A stretch of DNA of 64,000 nucleotides from Lineus longissimus. Taxonomy: Eukaryota; Nemertea; Pilidiophora; Heteronemertea; Lineidae. Below the pieces are notes generated by a model that was not told the origin of the DNA, made no database searches, and worked only from the letters and a program-made list of their open reading frames with translations. This document shows, in pieces, positions 701 through 44,323 of the stretch; the stretch's first letter is position 1, and every line of letters begins with the position of its first letter. The translations under genes were made by a program, and so were the position numbers. The stretch lies in contig NC_088325.1 of assembly GCF_910592395.1 (NCBI RefSeq), positions 930,001 through 994,000 on the forward strand, read 5' to 3'.

Positions 701-857
701 GCGTCTAACGCCCTGGTTGCAGCGATGATTGACACCATGCCGCTCGGACACTTCAACTTGAACTCCATGTAACCGCGACGTTTGTGCGTAGCCGTGATGG
801 AAACAAAGACATGCTCGAGACTGAATAAGTTGAGACCATTTAACATCTTCTTGGTGA
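701..857 (-). CDS. Convertase exon 9: P-domain segment
   Basis: 157 nt, acceptor TTGCAG, donor GTGAGT, phases consistent. Encodes [20 protein letters not shown] and then an [16 protein letters not shown] segment, matching the P (Homo B) domain motif LEHVxxxxxxxHxRRG...L.SP.GT. The remaining P-domain exons and the tail lie beyond the window start. Confidence 0.88.
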
Positions 858-3800
858 CTGCAAGGAAAGTGCGAGACTTATAGCAGACAAGTGATACTCA
901 CCACGGTCGACTTGCGATAAAAAGTGTCCTTTGACAAGAAAGTTCTGGGTATTGCAACATGTGATGAATATCTAAAGAGTCTCATTGCAATTTTGCTGCA
1001 GACTAGTGATATTTTTATTGCTCATCGCAGTGATAAATATATCACATCTCTGCATCAAAATCGCAAGTCTGCAGTAAGCAGTCTGTGTGTCATAACGCAA
1101 AGGGCAGGCTCCTATGGCACAAAGACGTCGTACAATGCAATCGACATTAGAAGCTTGCGATTGCGTTTGTGTGAAATTTACTGAAGGAGATGACAATAGC
1201 ATGCCGCGAAGTTACTATTTATAGCTCACAAGGTCATTTGCATAAGATATTGATGACGTTTTAGTCAGGTGACAGTCGGACATCGACACTTATTTCTACG
1301 CATTTGAACTTATTTCAAAGTCAATTATCTTTGACCCTGCATTGTTTTTAGCATGAATGATAGCATAGAGTCAGAGAGAGAAATATTCAGAACAATTATG
1401 TAGTATTTCCAACACTCGGACATGTGCCAGATTGAATCTAACTGCCCTAGTTAGAAAGCCTGAATCCATTACGAAACCGCATGTTTGTCCGACATTGCCT
1501 GTAATTCAGCGATGGGGAAATAGAGGGCAGCAGCTGCAGTGACGTCATCTTCGCGGAATGTTATTGGTAGAGCTACACTGGTATTTGCTTCTCACACTAA
1601 TCAAGCAACGGGGCCCTGAATCAACAGTGATGGGTTTAACAGCGCCACCTACTTGTATGCGTAGTCGAATATATTAGTGGATATTTCTGGATTTTCGCAT
1701 TGACTTTTAAATCTTGCGTAGTGAAAGACGTCAGGAATGGCACCAGCGGCCATATTTTAGCGGCGTTGACGAGACGCCAGGCGTCCATTAGGCCAAAGCC
1801 ATGCTGGTGGCTGTGGTGTAGGCCGGCACTGTTGGTCGCCCAATCGGCACCCTTCACATCAACCTGTGGGGAATGAAATGAAAAATTAAAAAAAATTAAT
1901 CATCGAGAGACTTGACTGGTGAAAAATGTTTCAAATTGTAATTTTTCTTTAATTGTGTGAGTGGCACAAAATACACAAAAATAAAATAAAATAAAATTTT
2001 TATTTTGATTATGAAATTATTTTGGTTTATTCAATCAAAAAAAAATTATTTTTTGCATTTTCTATTTTTGCAATTTTTATTTTGATTATGAAATTATTTT
2101 GGTTTATTCAATCAAAAAAAATTTATTCTTTGCATTTTCTATTTTTGCAATTTTTATTTTGATTATGAAATTATTTTGGTTAATTTAGTCAAAAAAATTT
2201 ATTTTTTGCATTTTCTATTTTTGCACATTGATATTAATTTTGAAATCTTTGAAAATAAAGTGCCTGCAAAATTTGGCAGTTTACTCAATTCCTTACCTTG
2301 TAGCTCGTTAAAATAATAAGATGTTGTACGTCCCGCCATGTCAGACAAGGGCGCACACTCAGAATGAGCGCGATCATTCCTGCGCCGATCGGCGCTGCAG
2401 CACTCGTACCAGAATGAGACTCCGTACACCCGATACCGCCCCGCAACGTCCAATCAGTCGTCACCTGCAAATATAGGGGGCGCTGTCAGTGAACAGAACA
2501 AGTAATGAGGTTATTTCTTCAGTCAGGGCAAACAAGGAATTTCACAGTTTTACAACAATAACATTTTTAGTTAATATATCTGAAATGATTGACAAAGTGA
2601 CTCTGATATTTTGATTTGAGTACATATTTCTCTTACGAATCTTGAAAAATGAAATATAATTCTCCAATGTCAGAAAAACAGAAAACGATTAAGTTGTAAC
2701 AAAAGAGATTCCTTCCTCTGAAAGCTACAAACAGGACAATTGTTAAAACAGGCAGATATTAGCAAGTGGGAAATAATTTATAGCCAACACATGCAAAATG
2801 TGGTTGGGAGTCATGCACCAGTCAATGTGAACCATGTACCCCCTCTCAGTCAGGGGTCACAACTAATTCAGTGTCAGATTAGTGTCAAGATTTGAGCAAA
2901 CACGTTTTTCTGGCTGTCAACTATCTGCTGAATATATGAAGTGACGAAGACAAGTTGAGTTCTACATCATTTTATCAAGAGTCGCATAAGATTCCATCAC
3001 CTGACCAGGGGGTACAGGGTTCAGATTGACAACTGCATCATCCTGAACAGGTCTGTTTACATCCAGCCTTACCCCACTGAATCAAATACAGACACCATTC
3101 AGAATGACGATCATTAAAGGCGTACTGCCATTCGTGTCATTGTATTTTCTAGTGGTACAGGTAAATAGTAATAGACAATGCTGTAGTGCAATCACAACGC
3201 ATGCAAATTTGTTGAAACTTGGCATCTACAGTCTATGTCTTTCAGTCGATACAGTGACATTGATGAAATTTATACTTAGTACGTATTCAAACAAATTGGA
3301 AATTTTCAAATTCGTGTTAAATTTTCAAATGTTTCAGCGAATGGAGCAGGCCTTTACAGTACAGGTTTTTGGTGCCTTAGTGTAATAAGCATAAACACTA
3401 AAATATAAATGGTTAAAGATGAAAAATGAAAGCTTATTTACTAAAACATTATTTACTAAAGATTATAATATAAAATGATGTATTAAAGGGTTAGTCAAGT
3501 GGCTAAAAACGTGTGTTATTTACAAAAGCATTAGACATTAAAGAAACGCAAAACGGTCAAGATTTGAAAGTTCAGTATTAAAGGGCTAGTCAAGCTGCTA
3601 AATCGTGCGACAACGATCATTGTGCGACTTACGATACTTCGTTGCGATCCCAAACTCCCGCTGCTGTAAGTGACGGCCATGATGGCCGCGCACTCCTCAG
3701 CATAGTACGGGATGTTCAATTCCTCGTCCACTGCCCCTGCAAAGGTTGAGAATGACGCAACGGATAAAAAGCTGGAAAGCATCAAACATAATCGTAGCTA

Positions 3801-6800
3801 GAACCTGGTGAGTGAAAATCGGAGGCATTTTCAAAGAGATCGAAAGGATTTTGTTAAAGTGGGTCAGCTGGCCCCCAAGGGGATCCAAGCCTTAGTGCCC
3901 CCCCAAAAAAAAAATATTTGAAACCGACCACGAAATTTCAAAACTTGGGGACGTGAAACTCATCACATCAGTCATAATAATGTGTTCAACCCTTTGTCCA
4001 CACCTCCAATTTTCAACTCACATAAACAGCTAGCGAAAGTTTTTCTGAAACTGAAATATACTTAACTGGGCGTAGTTTTTATCGATTACCATGGCAACGA
4101 AGACATTACAAGCATAGTAACCTTCCCAATATTACCAAACCCAGGCAACCCTATACCTCCAGAATGTTCATTCATGTGCAGAGCGGTTTTTATAGCTGCG
4201 ACCTGCAATCATAATTGCTGCAATGTGTGGCAAAGAGATCTCTTGTCTGCAGGTAAAACCAATAATTGCTGGATTTGATATTCATAGCAGGTCGATGCAA
4301 TCACCTAGTCTTACTACAAATGAGAGATTTTTGTTGCATGCCATCACGATCGCAAGTCACTGTGATAAAAATCACTTGTTTGTGCACAACTTTAAATCCT
4401 AAGGAAAGGAGAGAGTACCATCCCTACCGATGCCTACATCTGGCAACACTACAAAAAAAGGACAGATGCTTCTTGCAAACATAATCAAACATAGCCCCTT
4501 TCGTACCAATGAATCAATGTAGCGTTTATCGTGAGCGAAACGCAATCGCCCAGGACATGTTAGCATAGCAACCAGAACCAATTCCTTGTTTCCAACAGTC
4601 TCCACCACCACAGTGCTCCCCTCTATGGATAATTCTCGACACCAACTTACAATCGATCGCGTATTCCAAGACCCGCTACTGAAAGTTACCGCATGCATAG
4701 CAGAGCAGGGCTCCGCGTACCCTGGGGTCAGGAGGTCGTCCGCTAACGCACCTGACAATGGGAAAACAGCCAATATGGATTACAGAACGGGCACGAAAGA
4801 GACCGCAGGTATATTTCGAACACGTCTTCTTTTTTATCTTCAGCATGTACAACAAGGGGAGAAAGGGCCAAAAGATTGATCCCTGTGGTACTCTGGTCTG
4901 TTCAGTAGCACAAACAATTCTCGCTACAACGAATGTTGTGCTGGCATTCCTTGCAGTTCGTCACAGCAAGATTGGACTACCAGGGCCATCATCCACTGCG
5001 GAAGTTCTCGATGCATGGCACTGATCAGTCCGCTAGTAGCACTCCAACATGCAAGCCCCTCCCTCATAAACATCCCCAACATTCGTTGAAGCTCCTACCA
5101 CCTTTTACCAATGGACAAACCCTAAACATTTTCCTCCTCAAACATTACCTACTAAACACTGAAAAATATTTCCTCCACAAACATACCATATCTCATCCTA
5201 ACACAACATCATCATAAAAATAGATACTCTCTATCTATTTTTAGAAGTCTTTGATATCCCGTGCACACACGTGAAAGCTCAAGACAATTCAAAAATTTCT
5301 CGCTCTACAATGGGGAAGATGTTAGATCCCCATCGACAATAGCATTCCGCGAAGATGACGTCACTGCAGCTGCTGCCCTCTATTTCCCCATCGCTGAATT
5401 ACAGGCAATGTCGGACAAACATGCGGTTTCGTAATGGATTCAGGCTTTCTAACTAGGGCAGTTAGATTCAATCTGGCAAATGTCCGGTTGGAAATACTAC
5501 ACAATTGTTCTGAATATTTCTCTCTCTGACTCTATGGTATCATTCATGCTAAAAACAATGCAGGGTCAAAGATAATTGACTTTGAAATAAGCTCAAATGC
5601 GTAGAAATAAGTGGCAATGTCCGACTGTCACGTGACTAAAACGTCATCAATATCTTATGCAAATGACCTTGTGAGCTATAAATAGTAACGTCGCGGAATG
5701 CTATTACAAAGTTAAGCATGTAGCACATTTCGCTGATGAGCTGAGATCATTTCGAATCTCCTGCTTCTCGACAGATTGTCTCCCCTTATAAGGGGATAAT
5801 GTAACTTCCTAATCCAAGGAACACACATATTGTACACCTGGCCATTTCAGTTGAGAGTTTCCAGAGTGGCACTGCGTGGCAAGGCCTCGGACCCTTGACC
5901 TCCCGATTACAAGTCAGACAAGCCTGCACTGCACCACCTCCCCAAAAACAACACACAACATCTGCAGTTTTACCTAACTTAACGAGAAATTCATGATTGT
6001 CAGATATTCACGTGTGCGTACAGGGTATGACTTACTATTCTGCGAGTCCCCCACGAGCCACTACTAAACGTAATGGCGTGCATCGCAGAGCAAGGCTCTG
6101 CGTAGAACGGCGTTGCCAAATTCTCACCCACTGCACCTACGAACGAAGCAATGTGTTTCAAAATATTTAAGCCATAGGAGTGGATTCACTTCTACAGATA
6201 GATGCCCTGCAATCCAAGGCAACCCTTGCACAGCTCAGAGGGCCTGGTCCTTTACCTAGCTCACAAAATGCGCCCCTACAAGCCCAGATACCATTGGGTT
6301 CCCTGACCTCAGTGACCTTTCCAAGTCCAACTGATAAGGCCTAGCCCCTAGCTTTTGGTACCTGCTGTGCACTCCAAGCGCTCTCTTTCAACTCACATCA
6401 GTTCCCTGGCTCTGCCACTTCAGCTTGACTCAATTAGATCCAAGTCCCTCAGTCTGCCCCTTCCAAACTCTTAATGATGACACGGCCCAGCCCCTAGCTT
6501 CAATTTATAGGCACCCTGCACTCTGAGCACCCCCTTTCAACATGTAGTGAATCATAAACTTACTATCCGACGAGTATCGGTCCACCAGTTCCCACTACTG
6601 AAGGTCACAGCCGTCATAGCTGAACAATACTCGCCATAAAGGGGTGTCGCCATGTCTTCCCCAAGAGAACCTACGACATTGATGCACAGGACTCAGCGTT
6701 ATGGAGCGCAGGCAAGACATTCCTTAGAGAACCAATGACATTGATGCACAGGACTCAGCGTTATGGAGCGCACGCATGACATTCCTTAGAGAACCAATGA

Positions 6801-9800
6801 CATAAATGCACAATGAGCAATATTACTCGACATAATGGGGCGCTATGAACAGATATCCAATATGTCCGCCAGGCGGCCATCTTGGACTTGGCACTCTGAA
6901 GGGATTTCTGCATTGGTTCACATATTATGAGCCTCTTTCAAAGTAGATTTTGCCTTGCCCACAAAATTGTTCAACATAAGGCCTGGCATAAAACTCTCAT
7001 TTCTGTAGAATCTAGACAACACTTGAATCAACCCCACAATACAGAATCGGCTACATATCATCAGGGATATAAAAGAGGGCGAGAAAAGGCAAAAAAGCAT
7101 CATCATTATTCTTACCTATCGTAACTGTATAATGGGAATTTGCATAGCCATCAAAATTGCAGTTGTCGATATAGCGACCGCCGTTGCCGCTAGCGACCAC
7201 GTAGATACTACCATAACCACGGCGACCAGTCTCGATGCCCTTGACGATGGCTGCCTTTGCCATGGTGTGTGGTCCGTCCACCGTCTTACCATCATCGTCC
7301 GGACCCCAACTGAAACAGGCAAACACGAAAGTTTTATCAAATTTATTTCATACGAAGAAGAGGGGGACACTGGAGGAAGTAGATGGAACCAACCGCAAAA
7401 GGGAAATTGCTTTGAAGGAGACCTGCCGAGGATCAAAAACTGTCAGCTGCAGTAATTTTTCATTATTATCTCAAGAAATAACACCTAGATAATGTCAACA
7501 CCTTATGCAAGTATCAATTCGTTTCTTGTACCCCCCTCCTCAAGGGTAGTTAAGCTATCACCACTAATCTTTGCCGATGCTTGAGTAGTATTTATTTTTC
7601 CTTTAGTGAAAATTTGGCGAAGCTGGAAAGAATAAGGATGCTAATGTGTCGATGTCTTGTCGAACATACAGCCTTACCCAGTAAAATTAGTTCGGTTACT
7701 TTATATGACGGTGATAACTGATATATTGTTGATGGTGATGTCTTGACGAAAGAAAAAGTAGCATTGGTGAAAAAAGGGTGATGCTTGAGCCTTAAGATGT
7801 CGTTATAGGGTGATAAGGTGTCGTACCCTTGAGGAGGGGGGGTACAAGACACGAATTGATACTTGCATTAGGCAGTGGTCAAAAGTGGTGTAATTACTTA
7901 TAAATTTTTTTAAATGTAAGCCTTTTTCAACCCCAAAATTTGAACTTACACCCAAAATAAAGGAAAATGGATATTTTCAGTCAAAAATCGAGATTTTTAT
8001 GCTTTCTATTACTGGGTCACAATGATAGGCTTAAATAGCAATGCTAAAGTGAAACCTTGAAAAATAAAGGTTTTGCCCAAAATAATGCCTTCACGCAAAA
8101 AATTAAGTTTTAATCCTGTCCTGAGAGGGTTAAAGGTTCTCCATGTACTTAGTCAAGGTAGTTTGCCAGCAGCTGCAGTATGGAGAGTGTTACTCTATGT
8201 ATATCATGCAAATTGGAGAAAATTATGCAAACTGCATCATTTCAATCATCACCAATTATATGTTGGTAAATATAAAAAGTGAAGTAAACATTGTGATATA
8301 CATTTCTATTAACCCTTTCCGAATTGCAGGCACAAGATTACCGGGATAAAACCCCTGAAATGTCAACTAGGACATTATAAGCTCGAAAGGCAATATTGGG
8401 TGATTGTAAATATGTAGGAGGAAACCGCACAGCCCGGAGGAAATTACGCTGACAAAGAAAGTCGCCCTGTCTGTCACACAAGTGCACCAGGACTGATTGG
8501 GAATTGAACCTGGGACCTCAGAGGTGAGAGGCACGGATGTTTCCGCTGTGCTATTTCAAAAACCCGTCCCCGATTATGACAAAAGTGTCAGAGACTCTTT
8601 CTAACGAACAGGTTTCCATTTTTTATCCCTTGAGACGTGCTCAAAATATGTCCAGGCTACAGTAGAACCTCCCTATTAAGGCTACGGCTGAAAAATGCTG
8701 TCCATAGTTGAGAGGTGTCCTGATTACAGAGGTTGAAATCAATGGGAATGACCAAATTCAGGCCCTTAGGGAAGGTGTCCTTGATGGAGAGCTTTCCGCC
8801 ATGGAAAGACACACTGTATTCCTTAATTCGTTATTCCGAACTCACCTCATAGAAAACACATCGTTGACTTGTAATTTCGTCGTAAAAGCCGCAGCTTCCA
8901 GCCTGTCCGTGATTGGTCCATCAAGCGCCCGGATACCGGATACCCGAGCATTGTAGGCCACTCCAACAGAACACACCGAGTTTGGGACGGCGGCTATTTC
9001 TCCAGCACAACGTGTCCCGTGATTATTATTGCCTGGAGGTGAGAATGAAATTTGCATGGCTAATAACTGCACTAGGCATTGTGTATAACTGCATTTCTAT
9101 TTTTCTGATCAAGATCGAGGACTAAATTCAACGGTGTATCTCTTAAACTAGGATAAATTTATGACAAGCTGTGTAAACAAGGTTCAAGTCATAAAAGTCA
9201 AATGGATGGACCTGACGGCCTTATGATCAATAGAGACCACAAGGATAAGAATAATATTATCCCGTGGCTGCCGTCCAACCAAAAAAATATTGATGCAGCT
9301 AAAACTACAAATAAGAAATTAACAACCAAACGAGTTGTAATAGAAGCATAGAATATAAATGTTAGATAGCTTCGGATTCCATTTTGGATTCCAATATTGT
9401 AAGGGTCATTGGCGTTCATCGTAGAAAAGCTAAAATTCACCGTTGCCAAGCTGGGATCAAAATTTATTGAGCTTAAAACGACTTTTCCCTTGCAGAATAG
9501 AATTCTATTGTGCATCCATTATGTGAGGGGAAAGTTTTCTGGGCCACCCTGTAGTACTTATTAGTACACCATTTTCGGTCCACGATTTTTCTTTGCGCTG
9601 TACTGTTTATCCGGGAAACTTGAATTGAGCGAGACTACGTACTCTTCCACGCATGTGGCATTGGGTCATCATCGTTGTCGTTGAGATCGCGGCTCCCGGC
9701 CGCGTTGTAGTTGGCTTGGATGTCTGGGCTGTTCCACTGGACACCTGAAGAGACACCGAGGCAACTGACATTAGGATACACTGAGCTATAAGCTGTGATC

Positions 9801-12800
9801 AGTGAAACAACTCACATATTGGTCACTTGGAGAGAACAGGCTATTTACCTTTACACCCCCCAGTTTTTGGAATGGGCTCTTCTTATGCATTAGCAAGAAG
9901 AGTCTATACAGGGAAATGGGGGTGAAAGGGTCAAAGGACCAATGCCATTGTTAAGGTCATTAGGACCAAGCAGCTGTTTGCTGCCCTGTCACACTCTTAA
10001 AATTAATTAGTAATTTGTATTCTGGAAGTTCCTACCCCTACATGTATTGCACCAACTGTGAAATTAGTTGTTTGAACGAACGAAATATTAACAAATTTAA
10101 AGTGTTTTTTACTACTTGTTGATTAGTTGAATAACTAATCAATTAGTTAGCTTCACTACTATTTTTACTAATTTCAGAGTTATTGCAAAAGGACCTGTCA
10201 GTCTAATCAGATTAGTAGTTTTTACTGATCAATTTCAAGCTGCATTTTTCGTCACTCATCACAGCAAATCATTCCAGGTTGCAGCAACAAAAATCCCTAG
10301 TTTGTGAGGCACTTTAAATTGGTTTAATTCTGCCATATGGATACACCTACTAAAATAAAAAGACACGTAGGCCTAGGCCTACTGGTATCTAGACAGTATG
10401 CACAGCTGTTTGTGAAGGCCTGTTTGCTAAAGTATCCACCTACATTGTTTCATACATGCCAATATCATGTATGGTAATTTAATTAATAGTGATCTGAATT
10501 TAGAATGTGGCATTTGAATTTAACCTATTAAAACCAACTCTGTACAAAAGAAAAAGATAAATAAATTAAGCCGTTCAATATTACCCCAGTTGGTCGAGAA
10601 TTTCCTATAATATCAACAAGAAACCACATCACTCCCCAAAAATCCCACGCTCGATGCAAAGTTGGCCCAATTGGTGGAGAATTTCACTAAATTACCCAGA
10701 TAAATACCAACCACCACTGCGGAATCTCTCAACCACAAGATTAACTCAATTGGGAGCAGATTACACGAAATTAACATGATTGCTTTCAAGGTGCAATCGG
10801 TACTTCCCACAATATGCTGACTAGGCAGTATTCATGCACCCTGCATACAGACTTAATATCAACGTCACCAGGTGAAAAATTCTGAATACTTCTATTTATA
10901 TTTCTCAACTCTAAACATTGTTAAAACTTTTTTTGTTGTAAGCAATCACGATTGCGGGTTGAAGACACTCAAATCATTCCTTCGTGGAGCACTGAATGGA
11001 GTGATAACTGATCAGCAACCCACAGCCTATTCAACCGATGTACGAATATCTTCTGAATACCTTGATAGGCCTTATCACCAGAAGAGCACCAGTATACTTG
11101 AGCCGCATAGAGGCACTCAAGAACCTATGTGATAACAAGTAACCGAACAACGGACATGTGATAAGAATTAAAGTACCCCCAACTTGGGCCTACTTGGACG
11201 TACTGTGAACAGTCAAATTTACACAAGCCCTCAATTCGTAGCAAATTCAACCGATGTACGAAAATCGCTTATAAATTCTTGGATTGTCGTAGCAATAGCT
11301 TTCTTGAGCCGCCTTGAGGTACTCACCAACCGAGGCGATAATATGTAATCTAGCAACCGTCATGTGATAACTAACTAAGTGCCCCCTACTCGGGCCTACT
11401 AAGACCACTCAACACACTTTTTGAATACTGTTCAAACCTGGGCTACCTACCGTCATCGATGATACAAACAGTCACTCCATGGCCTGTGGCGTTGTACGCC
11501 CAAACGCCCGTCACATTTATATCACGTCCCGGGTATTTGCGGTTCAGCTGAAATGAGGCAAGAGAAGGAGAAATTAGTTTCTTGCAAAATAACAAGAGGC
11601 CCAAGGGCCTAGCACTCAGCTGATCGATTTTGTTATTCTATATTATCATACTACCAAAGTTTCAAAGACTCTTAGACTGCAAACACCCCTGGCAATCCTG
11701 CAAACAACCATCCAACCCACTGGAAACACCCCTGCAATCCTGCAAACAACCATCCAACCCACTGGAAACACCCCTGCCATCCTGCAAACAACCATCCAAC
11801 CCACTGGAAACACCCCTGCCATCCTGCAAACAACCATCCCACCCACTGGAAACACCCCTGCAATCCTGCAAACAACCATCCCACCCACTGGAAACACCCC
11901 TGCAATCCTGCAAACAACCATCCCACCCGCTGGAAACACCCCTGCAATCCTGCAAACAACCATCCAACCCACTGGAAACACCCCTGCAATCCTGAAAACA
12001 ACCATCCCACCCACTGCAAACACCCCTGCAATCCTGCAAACAACCAACCAACCCACTGGAAACACCCCTGCAATCCTGAAAACAACCATCCCACCCACTG
12101 CAAACACCCCTGCAATCCTGTAAACAACCATCCCACCCATTGCTAACACCCCTGCAATCCTGCAAACAACCATCCCACCCACTGGAAACACCCCTGCAGG
12201 TTTAGTTGGCACCACAACCCTGCAAATGTTTGGCAGATTGTGCGAAATCTCTTCGAGTTTTTCAATCAAGAACTTTTTTATTTTTGCATATCAAGGCAGT
12301 TTGGAAAGCTGGGGAAAAAATGCCCACAAAAAATAGCAGTGCAAAGTATGGTTAATCAAAAAGACATTTTTTTCCGGACTATTATATTGACTTCTAAATT
12401 ACTTTTATCACTGACGCCAGCTGCTGCGATGGCCAGGCCGTTGGGGGCTCCTTGATATCAGCGCCCCGGAATGAAATACGATTCATAAAATAATCTTATT
12501 GATTACCAGTTTGCATGATGTCTCGCGATCCATGTCAGCAACTGAGATAATATAAATTACGATTAACGGATTTTCTGTTCAGCATGTTTGTTCATTTTCC
12601 AGTACTTTTCTGGAAAGTGATTGACGTTTTTCCTACATGTGCTATTTTGTTTGAGCTCTGAGATAGTAGAATAAGGCATAATTCGTTATTTTTAGCATTG
12701 TTCATGTTGGGTACCGAGATATGAATTACGATTAGATAACAGATTTTCCCTTCAATATGTTAACGGGCGATCTTCTCCTCTCTTCTTCAGTAAAGTACTT

Positions 12801-15800
12801 TTCTGAAAGTGATTGCTGTTTTTCAAATTTTGTTTCAACTCTAAGATACAGAAATAAAGTGCATTATTGAGTACAAGTATTACTTACAGTGGAACCTCCC
12901 TGAGTGGACACCTCTATATCAAGGACAACCTCCCCATAAAGGGTCCCAAATTGGTCGGTTACAATATTTAATATGACCTCTGTACATTGTAATCAGGACC
13001 CTTCTCAAGGACAGCATTTGTCAGTACCAAGGGTGACCCTTATACACCTTTCCAGAAATGGGGTGCTGAGCGTCCGAAATAGTGATGTCATAAGGGGAAA
13101 CTTGGCCTTATGGTGGAGGGACAAAGGAGATAGACATAATTGACCAACACACTTGAATGCCTTTAATGACAGACAAGGGGGAAAAAGTTAGTTCCAATGC
13201 AAGCCACCAATTTCGGGAAGCATGCATAGAGAAGTTTTTTCTTTGACTCTTTCCTACATCAGAGCGCATACTGCCAAGGTACCACAACCAACAAATCATC
13301 GAGAATTATTTTAGGAGATCTAACATGTTCTATCATCTCACAACCTGCTTGTTAATTCACGTTACAAGCCTACAAATCATTCCTGAGATTACTTCCTTCA
13401 GCAGACGATAGCGTCGGCAGTAAATCACCGTACGATATCGATACAACCATACTGGGTGGGGAACCGGCTTCCGGTAGTGCCGGTTAGAAAACACAATTTA
13501 CTGCAAATTGCCTTTTTTTCAACATTTTATTTTCTAGATCGTGAAAATTAACGAAAAGAACAAAATTTTCATGAATTAAGTTTTTGCAGATACGAAATTT
13601 CATTCAGTTTCCCAACAAGAAATATTTTTCCGTGATGTTTTTTTTCTCGCAAATCTACGCGATTCCAGAAATGCTCATAATATTCTCCTTTTTATGTAGC
13701 CACTATCTGAGTCTGACACATTAACTTCTGTCGGAGAAAGCCAACCTCCTTAGATTAGGTTTCCTCAGATCAAAACATTGGTTCACCTTGCTGGAACATG
13801 TTTTGGGTTCGTTTTTCGAGCCAGGAATTTTTTACAGATTGTTTCTTGTTTCTTCTTACAAGTTAGATCTTACCAGCTAGCTCCGAGGTGGTTTGGGGCT
13901 GATTACCTCGCCCCATTGTTTGTGTGAGACAATATAACTGGCGTTATTTGAGTCACAACATCATTAGGCGTTCACATTAACCCATTTAGTTAGATAGGAC
14001 TGTTCACACCGAATGCCCTGATCCAAGAAAAAAGATTCAAGGGGAATGCCTTGAAAGTAGTTTTGTGATCTCAAAAGAGAAATGTTCATGACTGAAATGT
14101 CAAGGGCAAATGGAAGTTGATAATTAGGGGTCATTTGCTTAGCAGGGTGGTTTGTGGCCTTGACTTGGAGATGTGGAAATTACTCCAAGAACTAGGTTGC
14201 TGCACATTCCAAAAGCAAGGCTTGTTTTTAACCACTGCCACCCCTGCCATGGCATTCGGTGGCCTCCAAAATGGCCTTCGTACCGTGCCATCTCAATCAT
14301 CTTACACACTTTCCAGTAACCAAGGCAAAAATGGCTCTAAAATGGTCCCCCTTAAAATCTTCTTGAATTCAAAACCTGCAAAGGATACATTTTTGGAAGC
14401 TGGAACCGTGTTCGGCGAAGGTTTTGATGCGGGTGGCACCGACACTGATCAAACTTGCCGAAGAAATCGGGTTAAATTTTGTGGCTTCTCCGATCACCAG
14501 GAGCAAACCAGATACGGAGCATCTTGCTTCCTCGCTTATCTTGCTCATCAGGTTCCCCTTTAAACAGTTTGTCAGCTTGTGGCAACATTTGCCTTGTAAC
14601 CAAATATTTCCCGCCCGCTGATCCGTCTGATAACCATATTGTTGGCATCCTTTCGCAACAAGGATGAAATCAACCTTTGTGTACAATCACTATCATAATC
14701 TATTTCATGAGTTGTTGGCACTGCGCAAAAAAATACACCTCGTGCTGCGTGAACAAGCAATTCAAATCACAGCTACCTAAAATGGAGGTGTCCGCCTGGT
14801 AGAGGTGTCGGCAATAGAAGGTTCTACTGCAGACCAGAAATCTGTCTTACCGAACTCCTTGCTTTCATTCAAACTATACATACCACAATTAATCACATCG
14901 CTCAGTTTCAGTTTCATTCCTTCCGTCTAATTTATTAGTTTCTTGTTTGACCATCACCCGAACCATGACATTCTATCCCTTTCAAGAACACCCATTTCTC
15001 CCTATTTCGTTTCCGTTTCATCATTCTGCAGTTTCAGAGCCACCCACCATGGAACGGCCTCAAGCAAGCGGGTGCTCTTCAGGAAAAGTTCTGAACTGAC
15101 AGGAGGAATGAACAGCATGTCTGGGCGGGCCTACGTCACTCATCACACAAAAATGAGGAAATTATGACAACACAACATGAGCGAGGGGTTTTTATCTTCT
15201 CAGCACAACAAGTAAGAAAAATGTTTTTTTAAATGTTGTCCAGATCTGCAGGGTAAACTCCTGAGGCTGTCCGTTCATCATACTTTGATAGTCCTTCATG
15301 ACCTGCCACAAAAGAGAACACTGAGCTTGGAGAACACTTAGATTGGAGAACACTGAGCTTGGAGAACACTGAGATTGGAGAACATTGAGATTGGAGAACA
15401 TTGAGATTGGGGAACACTGAGATTGGAGAACATTGAGATTGGAGAACATTGAGATTGGGGAACACTGAGATTGGAGAACACTGAGATTGGAGAACACTGA
15501 GATTGGAGAAGATTGAGATTGGAGAACACTGAGATTGGAGAACACTGAGATTGGAGAATACTGAGATTGGAGAACACTGAGATTGGAGAACACTGAGCTT
15601 GGAGAACACTGAGCTTGGAGAACACGGAGATTGGAGAACACTGAGCATGGCGAAGGCATCTTGATGATTACCGGCATTACCTTCCACTTACATGACTTGT
15701 AACATATTTACCTACTTTGGATAAATCGTTTGTGCCCCCCATCATCAATAGATCATTCCGGATCAGAACCTGTAACATCATCCCGGCAAGCTACTTGCCA

Positions 15801-17854
15801 ACATTTGGTTCCAATCATCGGGATGTTCATCCCGAGACGAACATGTTTAAAAATCGTACCTGGCATCTTTATTCTCACTTTGCGGTGAGGTACGGAATGT
15901 TTACAGGGGAAGGAATGCCCGCTCCTAATCAACAGAACTAATAATGAAGATTTCATAAACAGAAGGTTGCTACTCAGGCATTAATTGAGTGCAGGCCTTG
16001 ATTGTACCTTGATTCACCTTTTAATTGTGGAGTACAGTAGAACCTCTCTATAGAGGACACCCTCAGGCAAGTGCTGTCCTTAATAGAGAGGTGTCCTGAT
16101 TAGAGAGGTCAAAGTGAAAGGGAACAACCAATTTTGGATGAAAACTAGTACACTTACGATTATGAATCAATACCAGAAATTGATAGTTCATAGTTACATG
16201 TCGTAAAGGAATCAATGCGTACACATGTACATTGTGAGGACTTCAGTGCAACATCAATCACTGAGTGCCAGCTGGGCAGAGTAATCAATATCTACCTGAA
16301 TCAATCGATCAATTTGTTATTAGCCAATATGTTTCATGTGTGTGTGCGTGTCAATTTTGACGGGGGTCCCATGGTTCAAATTGGTCACCTCCAATGTACA
16401 GTGCAGGCCAAATCGACCTGTCGAAGACGTTTGTTTGGGCGCTGAACAATCATGTGTTTCACCTGGAACTAAGGGTCACAGTCCAGGCCTCTCAATTACA
16501 TGATTCCTACACAGTATAACGGTGTAGGCCGTACAGGATGTCCCCAAATTAGGTCTTTTTTTTTTTTTTTTTTTTTTAATAATATGACCCTCCTGAAGCG
16601 TTTTTTGACCCCTAACATAACCAAATCTCATCCAAATGGCCTAATTTTATAGTTTTACCCTAAAATTATAATTTTTCAGGTGTATGTGGTGATATCAGTC
16701 ACTAACTTTGATTTATGACGTCGCTGTTCAGGCAAATTGGCGCAATGAAATGTCCCCAAATTAAGCTAAAAAGCAAAAAAACATGTCCCCAAAATAGGCT
16801 AAAAAAATACAGGGTGTAGAGGTCTCCACGTAATTGAAAGGTCTGCAGTCATGACAGTGGCTGATGGCATTGTCCGAAGTTGTCTAAGGCCTTCTGACAT
16901 GTTCTGAGTCTGCGCATTCGTTTTGTTTGGGCCCCGGTTCGTCTTTGTCGAAAAGGTCCATAGCTATATTTATACCCGACACAATTTTCAAAGATATCCA
17001 CAAAAATCGCTTTTAGTGGTTGTTTATTGAATGGGTTTGGACGAAATTCTCAATTCACCTTTGGGAAACGACCCACTACACTGTCATAATAACAAAATAC
17101 AACTCACCAGAAAATTTTTTTAATGGTTTTTCATCATTGTTCATGGAATATGAGTTTGGACGACGGAATTCTCAATTCACCCTTTGATAACGACCGCGAC
17201 ACTACGTCGTCAAAGTAACAAAATGAAACTCACCAGATGCCACTGCTTCACGTAGTACGGATCTTTAAACGTCGGCACGTGGGGCTCTATCACAGCCTTA
17301 ATCCGGCGCGGCGACCGTTTCAATATCACTTGCGGTTCGAACCACTCCACAGCACTATCGTCATGAAACTTCTTATGAATCTCATCACGTATTTTTAAAT
17401 ATTCTTTCCGACTGATTTTGCCGTCATTTTGTTTTTTATAAGCCCTGTACATCAAATCATCCATTTTCTTCGGGTCGATATGATGCGCCTCGGGATTCTT
17501 ATGTTTCAAACGTTCATGGTCCGTCGCATCCCGCCGCAGACGGTCCTGCGTGTTATTTTTATGATATGCGTGAGAAAATAAATAAATGTTCGTTAACCCC
17601 CCAACATTCCCGTCATTCTTTAACCCCAATCCGGCAGCGACGATATCCGCGATATCATTTCTTTCCTCCTTGCTCGCATCGCTGTTGATGAAATCGTTCA
17701 TGTTGAGTTTGACGCCCCACTGGAGAAGCTGTGTCCCCTTACTGTCACCAGGGGGGTGTTTTTCCTTGTGGCTGGTTATGGCTATCACAGATGAGACTAG
17801 AAGCACCACGAAGCATGTCACACACGATTGACGATGAAAATCGGAAGACGCCAT
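701..17854 (-). CDS. Proprotein convertase (furin/kexin-type subtilase), 3'-partial
   Basis: Calcium-dependent serine endoprotease of the secretory pathway, a family that cleaves precursors after paired basic residues. Coding exons in transcript order: 17854-17234, 11547-11451, 9744-9643, 9032-8846, 7309-7116, one of four alternative exons (6670-6564, 6136-6036, 4751-4651, 3736-3633), 2464-2297, 1863-1653, 857-701; the rest of the P domain lies beyond base 1. Phases match at every junction. All four catalytic elements are visible: Asp in CIIDDG, His in NHGTRCAGE, oxyanion Asn in ASGNGG, Ser in [10 protein letters not shown]. Asn rather than Asp at the oxyanion position argues against PC2. The S1-side aspartates of WGPDDDG, DNC and FDGY are kept. 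It is shorter than furin between the pro-region and the catalytic Asp, and the prodomain carries an insertion. I cannot assign it to one vertebrate PCSK subtype. Confidence 0.95.
1195..1565. mobile_element. ~370-bp TIR MITE with TATA- and CRE-like motifs
   Basis: Begins AATAGCATGCCGCGAAG and ends CTTCGCGGAATGTTATT (inverted). Contains AGTGACGTCA near one end and CTATTTATAGCTC near the other. Two more copies are at 5338-5705 and 22447-22818. No coding capacity. This copy lies between convertase exons 8 and 9. Confidence 0.8.
1653..1863 (-). CDS. Convertase exon 8: end of catalytic domain, entry to P domain
   Basis: 211 nt, acceptor CCACAG, donor GTAGGT. Encodes [20 protein letters not shown] then [13 protein letters not shown], the family's catalytic-domain end (HxxGFGLxDA), followed by a less conserved stretch leading into the P domain. 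The donor was chosen because its one leftover base restores frame with the next exon; reading on would hit a stop soon after. Confidence 0.85.
1995..2230. repeat. AT-rich tandem repeat, ~77-bp units
   Basis: Three units of TTTTGATTATGAAATTATTT TGGTTTATTCAATC plus TTTTTTGCATTTTCTATTTTTGC. Lies in the short intron between convertase exons 7 and 8. Confidence 0.8.
2297..2464 (-). CDS. Convertase exon 7: catalytic Ser
   Basis: 168 nt (56 codons), acceptor TTTGCAG, donor GTAAGG, phase 0 at both ends. Contains [20 protein letters not shown] with the nucleophilic serine and [14 protein letters not shown]. Constant exon after the alternative cluster. Confidence 0.95.
3633..3736 (-). CDS. Convertase alternative exon 6, version A (last in transcript order)
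   Basis: 104 nt, acceptor TTTGCAG, donor GTAAGT, same phases as its siblings. Encodes [18 protein letters not shown], then [16 protein letters not shown]. This version looks most like the general family (PYYAEEC against PWYSEAC in furin; TYSSG shared) and may be the ancestral exon. It joins the Ser exon as RSI-VTTDW. Confidence 0.92.
4185..4400. repeat. Dispersed repeat with TTTTTGTTGCATG motif
   Basis: GAGATTTTTGTTGCATGCCA with TCGCAAGTCACTGTGAT and an upstream TGTGGCAAAGAGATCTC. Similar order at 48150-48345, 58330-58575 and, more loosely, 930-1190. Class unknown. Confidence 0.5.
4651..4751 (-). CDS. Convertase alternative exon 6, version B
   Basis: 101 nt, acceptor TTGTCAG, donor GTAAGT, same phases as its siblings. 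Encodes [18 protein letters not shown], then [15 protein letters not shown]. Keeps Tyr, Glu and Cys; the residue before Tyr is Gly. No stop or splice-site lesion is visible. A ~370-bp MITE (5338-5705) sits between this version and version C. Confidence 0.9.
5338..5705. mobile_element. ~370-bp TIR MITE with TATA- and CRE-like motifs
   Basis: Opposite orientation to the copy at 1195. Termini AATAGCATTCCGCGAAGATG and GTCGCGGAATGCTATT. Inserted between alternative exons B and C of the convertase. Confidence 0.82.
6036..6136 (-). CDS. Convertase alternative exon 6, version C
   Basis: 101 nt, acceptor TTCGTAG, donor GTAAGT, same phases as its siblings. Encodes [18 protein letters not shown], then [15 protein letters not shown]. 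Most similar to version B (both AEPCSAMHA), which suggests a recent duplication. The residue before the conserved Tyr is Phe. It lies 427 bp from version D and about 1.3 kb from version B. Confidence 0.9.
6564..6670 (-). CDS. Convertase alternative exon 6, version D (first in transcript order)
   Basis: 107 nt, acceptor GTCGTAG, donor GTAAGT; enters needing two bases and leaves in phase 0. Encodes [18 protein letters not shown], then [17 protein letters not shown]. Homologous to the exons at 6036, 4651 and 3633. Family-invariant Tyr, Glu and Cys (LYGEYC) are kept; the residue before Tyr is Leu. Longest version, with two extra codons in the loop after SSGN. The region around its acceptor is duplicated in 62-bp units at 6675-6815. 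Confidence 0.9.
6675..6815. repeat. 62-bp tandem duplication of the exon D acceptor flank
   Basis: GACATTGATGCACAGGACTC AGCG and AGAGAACC repeat at 62-bp spacing (from 6675, 6737, 6799; the last degenerate). In the extra units the minus-strand acceptor CGTAG|GTTCTC reads CATTGGTTCTC, so AG is lost and they should not splice. Confidence 0.7.
7116..7309 (-). CDS. Convertase exon 5: substrate pocket and oxyanion Asn
   Basis: 194 nt, acceptor TTTCAG, donor GTAAGA. Encodes [13 protein letters not shown] (an S1 and calcium-site Asp of the family), [12 protein letters not shown] (oxyanion Asn) and [17 protein letters not shown]. The Cys of DNC corresponds to the furin residue that pairs with a Cys encoded by the alternative exons. 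The furin motif CNCDGY is CNFDGY here. Leaves one base (G), completed by GG or GT from whichever alternative exon is used. Confidence 0.95.
7507..7866. mobile_element. Foldback element with ~45-bp TIRs
   Basis: GCAAGTATCAATTCGTTTCT...CCTCCTCAAGGGTA at 7507-7550 is inverted at about 7823-7866 with very few mismatches, enclosing about 270 bp. Non-coding; lies in the intron between convertase exons 4 and 5. Confidence 0.7.
8360..8560 (-). repeat. tRNA-derived SINE, family 2
   Basis: The minus strand carries GCACAGCGGAAACATCCGTG, an internal tRNA-like GGTTCAATTCCC and a body ending in CTACATATTTACAATCACCC. It pairs with the copy at 35055-35265. It sits in the intron between convertase exons 4 and 5. 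Confidence 0.65.
8660..8816. mobile_element. Pogo/Tigger-like MITE
   Basis: CAGTAGAACCTCCCTATTAA at the left, ...AGACACACTG at the right, TA on both flanks (8658-8659, 8817-8818). More diverged inside than the 47753 copy. Confidence 0.7.
8846..9032 (-). CDS. Convertase exon 4: catalytic His
   Basis: 187 nt, acceptor CTCCAG, donor GTGAGT. Begins [15 protein letters not shown] with the catalytic histidine, then [16 protein letters not shown], both hallmark stretches of furin-type convertases. A pogo-like MITE (8660-8816) ends only 30 bp downstream of the donor in the intron. Confidence 0.94.
9643..9744 (-). CDS. Convertase exon 3: segment between Asp and His
   Basis: 102 nt, acceptor CTTCAG, donor GTACGT. 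Encodes [20 protein letters not shown] and then [13 protein letters not shown], matching the family segment with a conserved Asp-rich stretch (DVNDxDxDP in furin). It joins in phase 1 to the catalytic-His exon. Confidence 0.9.
11028..11430. repeat. Direct duplication, ~215-bp units
   Basis: ATTCAACCGATGTACGA, TTGAGCCGC, CATGTGATAA and TGGGCCTACT/CGGGCCTACT occur in the same order in 11028-11240 and 11249-11430. Ends just before convertase exon 2. A looser direct duplication lies at 12497-12850. Confidence 0.6.
11451..11547 (-). CDS. Convertase exon 2: catalytic Asp
   Basis: 97 nt, acceptor TTTCAG, donor GTAGGT, starts phase 0 and leaves one base. Encodes [18 protein letters not shown] followed by TVCIIDDG, which carries the catalytic aspartate. 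The Gly codon is completed by the next exon. A 42-bp minisatellite begins about 110 bp upstream in the preceding intron. Confidence 0.93.
11693..12200. repeat. 42-bp minisatellite in convertase intron 1
   Basis: About twelve copies of CATCCCACCCACTGGAAACA then CCCCTGCAATCCTGCAAACAAC. Open in several frames, not coding. Close to the acceptor of convertase exon 2 (11547). Confidence 0.9.
12890..13035. mobile_element. Pogo-like MITE, truncated
   Basis: Left end CAGTGGAACCTCCCTGAGTG preceded by TA. The right end is replaced by a different dispersed repeat that starts near 13036. Confidence 0.5.
13036..13225 (+). repeat. Dispersed ~190-bp repeat, copy 1
   Basis: ACCTTTCCAGAAATGGGGTG through CCACCAATTTCGGGAAGCAT. 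A close inverted copy lies at 42195-42380 in a TBC1D23 intron. No terminal repeats seen; class unknown. Confidence 0.75.
15313..15650. repeat. 16-bp minisatellite
   Basis: About 21 copies of GAGAACACTGAGATTG with variants (GAGCTTG, CATTGAG). In convertase intron 1. Confidence 0.9.
16035..16158. mobile_element. Pogo-like MITE, right end missing
   Basis: TA then CAGTAGAACCTCTCTATAGA, followed by TCCTTAATAGAGAGGTGTCC. No right terminus found. Confidence 0.6.
17234..17854 (-). CDS. Convertase exon 1: signal peptide and prodomain
   Basis: Encodes 207 residues. The start ATG at 17854-17852 is followed by a hydrophobic stretch (about residues 11-27, [16 protein letters not shown]) typical of a signal peptide. 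A prodomain follows, with a candidate secondary processing site DRLRRD (about 105-110) and a candidate primary site KRSPRR (179-184), then [10 protein letters not shown], which opens the catalytic domain. Between the two sites lie about 45 more residues than in furin-type prodomains. The insert contains [14 protein letters not shown] (139-152), which resembles one EF-hand loop with Gly and Ile at the usual positions and a final Glu, but has Lys at loop position 1. The exon ends in phase 0 at a GTGAGT donor. A single exon holding the whole pro-region is unusual for this family, though N-terminal introns vary. Confidence 0.9.
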
Positions 17855-20746: not shown

Positions 20747-23700
20747 GTAAGTTAATTTAGTTATCTGTCATTCATCAGAATGTGTGATCGGGAGAAATGA
20801 GGCTCATTCAAGGTGTTTTTGACACTTCAAAAGTGTCCCTCACTTCACAAAAATCAACAAATGAAAACATTTCACTTGTCTTGTGTATGGCAGTGCACAC
20901 GAAATACACTTCCCTTGTGCATGAGACATGTATCATAGGACATGGAGCCTAGCCTACATTGATTCAAAAGTTGACTTTGTAGAAGTTGGAAGTGGCTGTT
21001 CAGAGCCAAAACAAACCTATACCGGTTTGCACAATGTCGATAGGCCTACTGGCGTGGTACCGGATACCGCACAGTCTTTTGGGCTCCTCGACCTCATCAA
21101 TCAATGTCCTGATGATGATGATAATCATGTCATTTGCAATCCCCGACCCGAAATGATGTACATAGGACTTTGTCACATTCAACGATAAATTGTAAATAGT
21201 AAACTCATTCCGTTCCGTGCTTACTGCTGCAGTGTTGATTTGTTGTGGCTCACAACGGCTTCCCCAGCTGATATAAAGTTGTAGTGACGCAGTCGCAGAA
21301 TAAACAAAAACTGACACACAGTTTTGCATTAATGTTGTCAGCTCAGGGTGTGCTTTAATATAATGGCCGGGTCTATTTGGCAAGCCGCTCGCCGAACAGG
21401 CATCTTTTTTTGTCCTGTTTGGAGAGCCGCTTGCCAAACAGCACTAAAAAGCCACCCTGTTCGGCCAGCCGGGCTTGCCAAACAGTTAAAAAATCTACCC
21501 TGTTTGGCGAGCTGGAGACTTTACTTTAATATTAATGAGTTCGGCTCTCCATTCAGGACAAGAAAAAGTCACTGTTTGGTAAGCCGGGCTTGCCAAGTAG
21601 TCACTTCCTAATATGATTCACCAGACACTATCCTTTTGTTTATGCTGCCTCCTAATCTTAACCTCTTATCTTTTCAGCCTGGCAGTACATACAGCGGGTC
21701 CAGTGGGACACAAACATCATCCGCCGCTCGCAGAGCCAAATCACGACAATATCGAGTGGTCAGCAATTCATCGCAAGTCGACGAATGCCTGTTCGGGACG
21801 CCGAACCGCGTTCAACAGAGGAAGGACATGTTGGATAGCAAATGGAAGAACGATACTAATGAGGAGACAAATATCGAGAGTGAGGCTCGCGAACGAAGCG
21901 CCAATCGTAAAAGTAACGGCAAAAAGAAGAAATCAAAGAAGGAAACCGTACAAGTGATAACAAAGGATCTTATTCGTAACTTAATGTACGTTGGTTTCTT
22001 GAAGAAATTTTAGAAATAAATCAGGTTGTCCTTGACCCTTTTATGCCTGCTCAATTTCATGCTTGTGTCATCTGCCTGTGTATTTTTGTGAAAATCCATC
22101 GAAGATTGCTGTAGAAAATGTAAAGTACAACCTCCTATTGTGGATAGATCTGATAAATGCTGTCCTTTATTGAGAGGTGTCCTGATTACAGTAGACAGAG
22201 TTCAAATTCAATGTACCTTTGCATATCAAACTTACCAAATCTTTTTTAGTGGGCGTAATAATCCAAAAAAATTGATTGCAGAGTTCCATCAGAGGATCCC
22301 TCAGGTCAGTGCATCATTCTCCCAGCGCCCGATTTCAACAGAATCCGCCGTGCGGCTATTGTGGTGACGAGGGAGGAGAGAGAGGCTATGGAGTTGCAGA
22401 GGAAGCTCGAGAAAGAGGAGGCAGACGTAAGTGAAAAAAAGCATTCAATAGCATTCCGCGACGTTACTATTTATAGCTCACAAGGTCATTTGAATAAGAT
22501 ATTGATGACGTTTTAGTCTCGTGACAGTCGGACATCGACACTTATTTCTACGCATTTGAGCTTATTTCAAAGTCAATTATCTTTGACCCTGCATTGTTGT
22601 TAGCATGAATGATACCATAGAGTCAGAGAGAGAAATATTCAGAACAATTATGTAGTATTTCCAACACTCGGACATGTGCCAGATTGAATCTAACTGCCCT
22701 AGTTAGAAAGCCTGAATCCATTACGAAACCGCATGTTTGTCCCGGCATTGCCTGTAATTCAGTGATGAGGAAATAGAGGGCAGCAGCTGCAGTGACGTCA
22801 TCTTCGCGGAATGCTATTCGAGCTCAATTTGCCAGTCGGGCAACCAGTGAAGCAGAGCTGATCATCCTACTTCACAAACCGGTTGTCCCTTGTAGTATAT
22901 TTTTGGGAAAAAGTGACGTATCTTGTCGCTAGTATGTTTATATATTAGACGTGTCGCTTGCATTGCTAGACATGGCCTTCATACCCTAGTGACAGCCAGT
23001 GTGGCTTATTGGGTGCCGGTAGCCAAATGCAGGGGAACGATCGCAAAAAAGGGCAGCAATGAAAAAAAGAGGCAAATAGACAAAAAGAGTGCGCAACCTA
23101 GAATCCTCTACAGGGTGGCCCAGAATTATTTTCCCTTGCACAATAGACTTCTATTGTGTATCCATTGTGTGACTGTGAGGGAAAACAATTCTGGGCCACC
23201 CTGTAGTGATGGTCATTGCGGTATACTATCAAGCTTGGGATGCTGCCAACTGACAATTGGCTAGTAAGGTGATTCACTGCAGCTAGCTATACCAAGCATA
23301 TTGAGAAACTGGCTCATGTTGGGATTCTGAGCTTGATTGAGTAGCACTTTGATACAGACCTGTATTAGTTATAAGTACGGTATAAAATTTATTAATATTT
23401 GCTCAAAACATCTTCATTATAGAATGAAGCGACAAGACGTAAAAATTTCCTAAAACAGATGGATATGAAGCGTCAGAAGAACGAAGCTCTAAATGACTTG
23501 GAGGTGGAGGCCCAGGAGAATGCTAATCATCTCCTGGAGAAGGCCAAGGAACAGGTGCAAGAACAGGAGGATGAGATCAAATACTTGAATGAGGTAGGTT
23601 AGGTGATAGCACTTGGGGGGGGGGGGGGGGAGTTTCAACCCTCTGCATACCTTCTTTGAGGCCAGTACATTCTCCACTAGGCCATTTGTCAGGGCGACCC

Positions 23701-26700
23701 ACCCTACCTTGGCAGCTTACCACTCTCCCTTGGAAGAGACACCCTTCCTTGCCACTTATCACCCTCCCTTTGAAAAGCCACACTACCTTGGCAGCTTACC
23801 ACCCTACCTTGAAAGAGACACCCTACCTTGGTAGCTTACCACCCTACCTTGGAAGAGACACCCTTCCTTGCCACTTATCACCCTCCCTTTGAAAAGCCAC
23901 ACTACCTTGGCAGCTTACCACCCTACCTTGAAAGAGACACCCTACCTTGGTAGCTTACCACCCTACCTTTGAAGAGCAGTCCTACCTTGCTCTACAGTTA
24001 CATAGGGGTTTCTATAGGACCACCCTACCTTAGATTACTGGCCACCCTACTTTGTGTTGCAAACTGGCAAAATTTCATGAATATCAAGGGTAATACCCAA
24101 CCTTGAGAAAACCATGTAGAGAGCCTGTTATATGATCTGAGAGGTTTCTGTAACGCATCCTGTCTACCTTGCAGCTGATTTTGAATGCAAAGTGCCACGC
24201 CATCCGCGATGCTCAGGTCATAGAAAAAGACGAGATCAAGCAAGAGATGACGGAGGAAGAGAAACGCCTTGACAGCATGATGGAGGTCCACCGTGTCAAC
24301 GTCATCCGCATCCAGGAGGAAATCGAGAAGCAGCGCCGTGAGGAGCGCCTACTGGGGGCCGCCACACTCCTCGAGCAGATCCAAGAGAATGAGCGTGAGC
24401 GATTGTTTGAGTTGGAGCGCAAGGATCAGGAGAATGTCGAGGGGCAGAAGTTGATTCAGCGGAATATTGAGGAGGACCGTATGATGCTCGAGGACAGGAA
24501 GATACAGCAGGCTCACTTGAGGGTGCGTTCGACTTTTACCTGAGTAGAACCTCGCTATTACGGACACCCTTCATACTGACTAGTGCTGTACTTAGATTAA
24601 TAGAGAGGTGTCCTGATTAGAGAGGGCAATTTGAATGGAATTACCAATTTTGGACTAAATGCAGTGTCCTTTGAGAGGGTGTCTTTGTAGAGAGGTATTA
24701 GCTGTAGTCGGGACTTGATGCAGAGGTGGCTGTCCTTGATGGTCTAATCAAGACTGCTCAGGTTGACTGAAAGTTCTGACCAAAACCTGTGGTACTGGCT
24801 GAGGGTTTTACTCAGATGTAATTTGAGGTCTCCCCAAGTGGTCTTGATTGAGGCAACAAGGGACCTAAAGCAAGGTACTGACTGCCATTCTTAAAGGGCT
24901 CAAAGTGGATTTTCTATGTTTTTCTTCACAGGAAGACCTGAATGAAGCCAATGCGGACATGATGAAACGTAAGGAACTCCAAATGGAACAGGAGAGATTA
25001 GCTGAACAGAAAGTGGTCGAATATCAGAAACACAAAGCAGTAAGTTTAGTCCCGATTCCGAACTTTTTCATTTTAGGTCAGTGTTACTTTTTCACGTTAG
25101 TTTTGTCTAAGTCGTTCATGAATCTGTCGCATTCATGTCTTCTTTTTGATAGGTGCGTTGTTGTTAATTGATGCGAGTATTTCAAAAGTTGTTCATGCGT
25201 ATCAATTGAAAAAAATGAAATAAAAACTGAAATTTTCACTTTTTCCAGGAACGAGAGGCAGAATATGAAAAAGAGCAAGAGCGGGCACGACTGGAGAAAG
25301 AAAAGGAAGTTGGCCGACTGAGGGCACAGCAGGAGCGCATGAAGGATGAGCAGGCGGAGAGAGACGCATTGAGGGCAAAGCGTGCCCAGGAGCAGACGGA
25401 GAGAGAATGGCGTGCCAAGGAGGCTGCTGAGGCCGCTAAGAAGGCAGAGGTGAACGCCATGTTGAAAGTTGCCCGGGCGCACCAGATGGAAGAGAAGGAG
25501 CACTTCCTTGCTGTACAGGCCAAGCGGGATCGGGCCGAGTTTGAACGCGTGCTCAGGTGGGTAATCTTCTGTATTTTAGCATGTCCACGACACCATTGGC
25601 GTCCGCTGAAAAATGCCAGGTCCAACGCATTTAAGCCAAAAGCCAGGGACGAATGTTCTCCACAGGACAATTGTCAGGGCGGCCCAGCCTACCTTGGCTG
25701 TGTTACCACTCTACCTTGGAAGAGCCACCCTACCTTGGAAGAGCCACTCTACCTTGGAAGAGCCACTCTACCTTGGAAGAGCCACTCTACCTTGGAAGAG
25801 CCACCCTACCTTGGAAGAGCCACCCTTCCTTGGAAGAGCCACTCTACCTTGGAAGAGCCACCCTACCTTGAAAGAGCCACTCTACCTTGGAAGAGCCACC
25901 CTTCCTTGCTCCAGAACTTTTCAAAGGGTTTCTGTAGGGCCTTGTGTCGGACTCTGGCAAAACTTCTTGAATACCTAGGTTACCCCCCTCCCTAGAGAAA
26001 ACCCTGTGGAGACCCCTGGTGGACCCTACTGTAACTAATCTTGTCTTTCCTTTGTTCAGAGCGCAGAAAGAACGCGTAGAGAAGGACAAGCGAGAGAAGA
26101 TGGAGGCTGAGTACAAGAGGAAGGAGCATGCCGATGACGTCAGGAAGCAAATCCGTGAGAAAGACCAGGTGAAAGTCGCTGAGAGAAACGCATTCTTCGA
26201 GGAGGGCGTCAAGCTAGACATGGAGGCGAAAGTCCGACGACAAAAACTGGATGACATCAAGGCCAAGAAATTAGAAGAATTAAGGTGGGTGTTCTGTTTG
26301 TTGTCGTGACGTCGTTAGTTGCATAAACTTTTTGGAGTTGATAATTTTTCCCGTTATTTAACCTTACCCCTTTTATATTTTCCTGTATTTTTTTTCTGTC
26401 AATTCTTCCCTTTCCCTGTTCTAATTCTGTGAGTGTCATCATGAGGTATTCCCAATTGCGAAAAATGGAATCGTCATGATTCAACATCAACCAAAACGAA
26501 AAAAATTGAACATCATATTTTTGTCAAAAATTTTCACAGATCACAAAATTATAGAGGCGCAGAAGTTCTGTTTATTTTATTGGAAGTATTGTTTCAACAT
26601 GAATTCATTCATTCTTTTCTGTCTGTCCTTGCACAAGATTTTAGCGAGCCCCTTTTTCTGTACCATACTCTTACTGTTGTAGTATTTCACACTCTGTTCT

Positions 26701-34435: not shown

Positions 34436-44323
<9,888 letters not shown>

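Follow-up and report, generated by a model that had tools for sequence, protein, structure and literature searches.

Can a single proprotein convertase gene make several different proteases by choosing among versions of one catalytic exon? The question is raised by a 64,000-nucleotide (nt) stretch of the nemertean Lineus longissimus genome (contig NC_088325.1, positions 930,001 to 994,000 of the forward strand; hereafter the window). On its minus strand, from an ATG at 17854 through 701, lie exons 1 to 9 of a convertase gene, with exon 6 present in four tandem, homologous versions. Judged by its residues and domains, the gene is a PC7-type (PCSK7) proprotein convertase. We think it likely that several of the versions are used exclusively of one another, by mutually exclusive splicing, and that the gene probably yields four enzymes that are tuned differently. 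A more specific proposal, which we hold with about even confidence, is that splicing of an S1'-wall exon turns one PC7 gene into four convertases that differ in prime-side (P1'/P2') choice, and that splicing selects the precursor set to be processed, which evolves by exon birth and death rather than by paralogous genes.

The four alternative versions lie on the minus strand at 6564..6670 (version A, TPLYGEYC, 107 nt), 6036..6136 (version B, TPFYAEPC, 101 nt), 4651..4751 (version C, TPGYAEPC, 101 nt), and 3633..3736 (version D, IPYYAEEC, 104 nt), with introns A-B, B-C, and C-D of 427, 1284, and 914 nt. An initial annotation of the window had described four homologous exons that share an AG acceptor, a GTAAGT donor, the absence of stops, and lengths of 2 mod 3, set between an upstream exon ending at 7116 and a downstream exon starting at 2464. 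We found the same on re-examination. All four versions are entered in phase 1 (a G plus 2 bases) and left in phase 0, and all four have the GTAAGT donor, versus none of the eight other donors of the gene. Used as tblastn queries against the window, each version matched the other three at E values of 4e-13 to 2e-5, and nothing besides them under E 0.4. An alignment of the versions also bore out that the Tyr, Glu, and Cys of a shared motif are invariant while their neighbors and the loop after SSG vary; the Pro two residues ahead of the motif Tyr is likewise invariant (PxYxExC).

Which part of the enzyme would change with the version? By alignment to furin, with numbering counted from the printed Trp328, Tyr329, and Glu331, the versions span furin residues ~318 to 351. 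Pro327, Tyr329, Glu331, Cys333, Ala338, Thr340, and Ser-Ser-Gly are common to all four versions and furin. The position of furin Trp328 is Leu in version A, Phe in B, Gly in C, and Tyr in D, and position 350 is Arg in A and B and Ser in C and D. Both neighbors of Glu331 vary (GEY, AEP, AEP, and AEE in A to D), and the loop after SSG, ahead of Ile351, differs between versions. The equivalents of Asp258, Asp301, and Cys303 lie in constitutive sequence and are kept with every version, as are Glu331 and Cys333.

In furin, Cys303 pairs with Cys333; the viral substrate considered below is cut after residue 685. The putative S1' site of furin comprises Trp328, Tyr329, Gly366, and Asn295 (PMC8453481, section 6), and in a modelled complex of furin with the viral substrate, Trp328 is placed against Arg685/Val687 and Gln350 against Ser689 (PMC9296015). 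Glu331 belongs to a Ca(II) site printed as 'Asp-Asp301-Glu331', with Asp258 named in a figure legend (PMC12649860), which supports the initial annotation in calling it a calcium ligand. Since Glu331 and its partners are kept in every version, loss of calcium binding is not predicted, and since the residue that varies next to the motif is at the position of the S1' wall Trp328, a change in prime-side substrate choice seems the likelier effect: the core is kept, and the prime-side wall and loop change. The earlier proposal of altered pocket surroundings or calcium affinity is thereby revised: change at the S1' wall is the likelier, a loss of calcium binding is less likely, and the versions may still differ in calcium affinity.

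We suggest the following mechanism. Each version would supply one structural piece, furin ~318-351 with Glu331 and Cys333, so that version choice would alter the residue at the S1' wall, those flanking Glu331, and the loop that leads to Ile351. Splicing would pick one version by tissue or stage, nonsense-mediated decay would clear mis-spliced transcripts, and the choice of version would then alter the residues accepted just after the cut site. Whether prime-side tuning is the purpose of version choice we consider a toss-up on the present sequence. A rival purpose, compatible with the splicing part of this mechanism, is that the versions tune how tightly calcium is bound at the Ca(II) site adjacent to S1, and not the choice of substrate. 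It draws on the varying residues that flank Glu331 and on the mutually exclusive exons of OGDH, which give calcium-sensitive and -insensitive forms (PMC7969005), but the ligand Glu and its constitutive partners persist with every version, and the residue that no two versions share sits on the prime-side wall. We regard calcium tuning as possible, if doubtful.

The versions are old and under amino-acid constraint. In pairwise comparisons they share 44-74% of amino acids over 34 codons. The proportion of silent differences (pS) is 0.66-0.98 and that of amino-acid-changing differences (pN) is 0.20-0.37, pN being the lower of the two in all six pairs; the test, of the kind that the initial annotation had proposed, is pairwise and not per lineage. 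A corrected silent distance (dS) was computable for one of the six pairs (C-D, 1.63), the remaining five being beyond correction. Third positions hold 21-27 of the 39-46 differences per pair, an excess in all six pairs (binomial p 2e-5 to 0.010, the pairs being non-independent), and length differences among the versions are whole codons. Flanking introns, compared at fixed offsets, are 10-39% identical versus 50-63% for the first 60 exon bases. A tree of the segment (~34 aligned residues) placed A to D together (0.985) and D outside A+B+C (0.895).

This constraint bears on whether all of the versions are in use. Conceivably a single version, D or another, is in use, and the rest are unspliced relics of an old exon duplication. 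Copies do appear to die at this locus, as shown by decayed partial copies right before version A (36 of 58 positions identical), and the pyrimidine tracts of A and B are weak. Set against this are the low pN beside high pS, the lack of stops, the intact splice sites, and the whole-codon indels in four of four versions. Furthermore, a neutral simulation with substitutions only gave a chance per exon of remaining lesion-free of 0.10-0.15 at 0.3 substitutions per site and of ~0.04 at 0.5. Long-standing disuse of the versions is unlikely, while one version may have died recently; as an account of the cluster, the relic explanation seems to us improbable.

The decayed copies are two 62-nt tandem units at 6671..6794 (minus strand), directly before version A, which together with the start of A form one tandem array and resemble decayed partial copies of its first 58 nt. 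The first 58 nt of each unit match version A at 36 positions in an ungapped register. The later 37 nt of the units alone give 21 and 22 matches, reached by 0 of 20,000 base shuffles. Neither unit has an acceptor AG or the exon's 3' half. We read them as dead partial copies of version A because of the ungapped register of the array. Counter to this reading, a gapped local alignment of version A with its preceding intron is marginal (3 of 200 shuffles reach the score), and its best piece is a different 17-nt stretch and not the 62-nt units. Local alignment of versions B, C, and D with the introns revealed no decayed copies in any intron.

What would restrict each transcript to a single version? 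We translated all 16 subsets of the versions between exons 5 and 7. Four subsets are open, exactly the four single-version transcripts, and the other 12 (none, six pairs, four triples, and all four) contain a premature stop. Because each length is 2 mod 3, zero, two, or three versions are out of frame. The all-four transcript keeps the downstream frame arithmetically, yet is interrupted in the model by two stops, of which the earlier, at codon 470, falls within version B. Therefore, the initial claim that frame is kept with exactly one version holds, and its addition, "or all four", is right arithmetically but not for coding. The stops in the 12 non-single subsets fall 371-586 nt upstream of the exon 8/9 junction, so mis-spliced transcripts should undergo nonsense-mediated decay. 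Together, the anatomy, the constraint, and this one-only frame rule bear out the view of the cluster as tandem, phase-matched alternatives for one exon within the catalytic domain of a convertase.

The same 12 of 12 subsets, each with its stop well before the last modelled junction, would also suit poison exons, that is, extra versions co-included to bring in stops and lower enzyme output. Poison exons, however, need no open frame with the Pro, Tyr, Glu, Cys, and SSG of an active-site segment, and every version alone is a full coding replacement; we judge such a role very unlikely. Finally, an assembly error or haplotype copies, which the initial annotation had named as a way in which its reading could fail and for which the tandem arrangement alone speaks, have practically no chance of explaining four versions with 44-74% shared residues, silent sites at or near saturation, and unlike introns, a divergence that excludes a recent or artefactual duplication.

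Several observations weigh against mutually exclusive use of the versions and its proposed purpose. First, the basis for exclusive splicing is genomic DNA of one species, and any exon copy inherits frame and phase, so these are not four independent facts. Second, the pyrimidine content of the acceptor tracts is 0.55 for A and B and 0.70 for C and D, compared with 0.60-0.90 for seven constitutive acceptors; the tracts of A and B are thus weaker than all constitutive ones, and these two versions may be used rarely. Third, complementary docking and selector sequences, which the initial annotation had suggested looking for, did not emerge: after removal of a dispersed repeat from intron B-C, pairing in seven of seven intron comparisons was no better than in dinucleotide shuffles, with 17-56 of 60 shuffles reaching the observed values, in a search that has little power with a single genome. 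Intronic RNA pairing is normally recognized by covariation. Fourth, no version shows the AG-free stretch before its acceptor that marks a distant branch point; the nearest upstream AG lies 21, 52, 74, and 35 nt away for A to D, versus 18-60 nt for constitutive acceptors. Nothing in the introns as yet accounts for exclusivity beyond the frame rule. Lastly, the S1' assignment comes solely from the furin alignment.

Other routes to exclusivity were considered. Steric exclusion is not supported, as the introns between versions are too long, and incompatibility of minor and major spliceosomes is unlikely, since all four versions have an AG acceptor and a GTAAGT donor. The frame rule plus decay is the sole exclusivity mechanism with direct support, the decay itself being something we infer. 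Among seven splicing-factor motifs counted across the cluster, TGCATG, the motif of Rbfox proteins, occurs 5 times versus 1.5 expected, with three copies in the intron after D. GTTTG (15 versus 7.5), GCATG (8 versus 3.9), and YGCY (66 versus 48.5) also exceed expectation, the other motifs being near or below it. After seven tests this excess is weak and serves as a lead only.

A dispersed repeat of ~370 nt, MITE-like (resembling a miniature inverted-repeat transposable element) by eye, has ~96% identical copies at 1195-1566, 5337-5705, and 22447-22818. The copy at 5337-5705 is inverted relative to the other two, so that pairing with the copy at 1195-1566 could fold the pre-mRNA into a long stem around exons C to 8. 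We set this inverted repeat aside as a dedicated RNA stem, since both arms belong to the dispersed repeat, which has a further copy at 22447-22818.

The gene model, with exon ends placed by eye from splice consensus and homology, contains the catalytic Asp, His, Asn, and Ser regions; its pro-domain, S8 catalytic domain, and P domain all score above Pfam cut-offs. All exons are on the minus strand. Exon 1 (17234..17854) encodes the N-terminus, the pro-domain (Pfam S8_pro-domain, E 9.4e-11), and the start of the catalytic domain. Exon 2 (11451..11547) holds the catalytic Asp region (IDDG) and is followed by exon 3 (9643..9744) and exon 4 (8846..9032), the latter with the catalytic His region (HGTRCAGE). 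Constitutive exon 5 (7116..7309), before the cluster, carries WGPDDDG, SGNGG with the oxyanion Asn, and DNCNFDGY with the equivalents of Asp301, Cys303, and Asp306. Constitutive exon 7 (2297..2464), after the cluster, has the catalytic Ser (GTSAAAP), exon 8 (1653..1863) the end of the catalytic domain, and exon 9 (701..857) the first part of the P domain, which continues past window base 1 in a minus-strand reading frame (L009:8625-8894). PC7 has Ala and Thr where furin has Thr309 and Ser316 (PMC8453481, section 8), and so does the present gene. PC7 is reported to have been lost in insects and retained in the lophotrochozoan Lottia (PMC8244231).

We also searched the whole genome (391,118,348 bases in 30 contigs, the window lying on contig C19). 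At E <= 10, version A found only itself, B (9.3e-8), C (5.3e-6), and D (0.10), a result that rests on four first-look candidates. With the version D protein isoform as query, 29 matches reached E <= 0.001: 10 fall within the PC7-type gene, and the remaining 19 are spread over six genes (three on C2 and one each on C3, C5, and C13). This search did not return A and C of the cluster itself and might likewise have missed a short additional exon beside a paralog, although the exons seen in the paralogs are longer than the versions and did score. As judged by eye, the segment occurs once in each of the six paralogs, within a larger exon that starts at QGR and has no intron after TVTI. In five of the six paralogs, a donor-like GT occupies the point (I/V or V/V) that corresponds to the end of exon 6 in the PC7-type gene; L015 reads on. 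Given these larger exons without the upstream intron, the small duplicable exon is peculiar to the PC7-type gene among the seven. Three furin-like paralogs (L015, L017, and L019) have Trp at the furin 328 position. Another, L026 (C3:6955817-6956044), which we take to be a PC2-like gene, has SGDGG at the oxyanion site, and L029 (C13:2387823-2388023) is a divergent convertase-like gene without the Tyr of YxExC (LATGESC). A further S8-family gene by Pfam profile, L002 (C10:10934705-10934944), had no match to isoform D. A search for relatives in viral contigs found one stretch that fitted a search pattern, and none was confirmed.

Elsewhere in the window, a CBL N-terminal domain lies at 46222-46842 on the plus strand (Pfam Cbl_N, E 4.5e-57); PCSK7 and CBL are both on human 11q23. 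Two TPH-domain coiled-coil stretches at 24154-25600 (plus strand) are presumably exons of a CFAP45-like ciliary gene. By eye, minisatellite-like arrays occupy 11645-12142, 15229-15707, 25610-25980, 30741-31045, 39361-40085, and 61650-62500. Several of them are open in multiple frames simultaneously, and the one at 11645, with a 42-nt unit, lies directly 5' of exon 2.

How does the cluster compare with known systems? The gene resembles PC7 in its pro-domain, S8 catalytic domain, P domain, and Ala309/Thr316 pair, and differs from it in the alternative versions: the initial annotation knew of no convertase with such a cluster, and no convertase whose catalytic exon exists in alternative versions turned up in the titles and abstract openings that searches of open-licence PubMed Central text brought up. 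Accounts of convertase diversity otherwise name separate genes (furins, PC1/3, PC2, and PC7). Dscam-type clusters are arrays of homologous exons of which one is chosen per transcript. The convertase cluster is likewise an array of homologous exons, but docking/selector pairing was looked for and not found in this single sequence. If our proposal is true, the four-way switch would amount to a naturally occurring set of S1' wall substitutions bearing on prime-side specificity, in a drug-relevant family. An enzyme parallel is exons 4a/4b of OGDH, duplicated exons of which one is chosen and a calcium-related property changed (PMC7969005); OGDH has two versions, kept exclusive by distant branch points, whereas the convertase has four versions and no such signature. 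Insect serpin-1 is alike in that exon duplications and alternative splicing diversify one gene of proteolysis (PpSerpin-1, PMC12758981). There the inhibitor varies; here splicing would diversify the protease that does the processing, and not its inhibitors or substrates.

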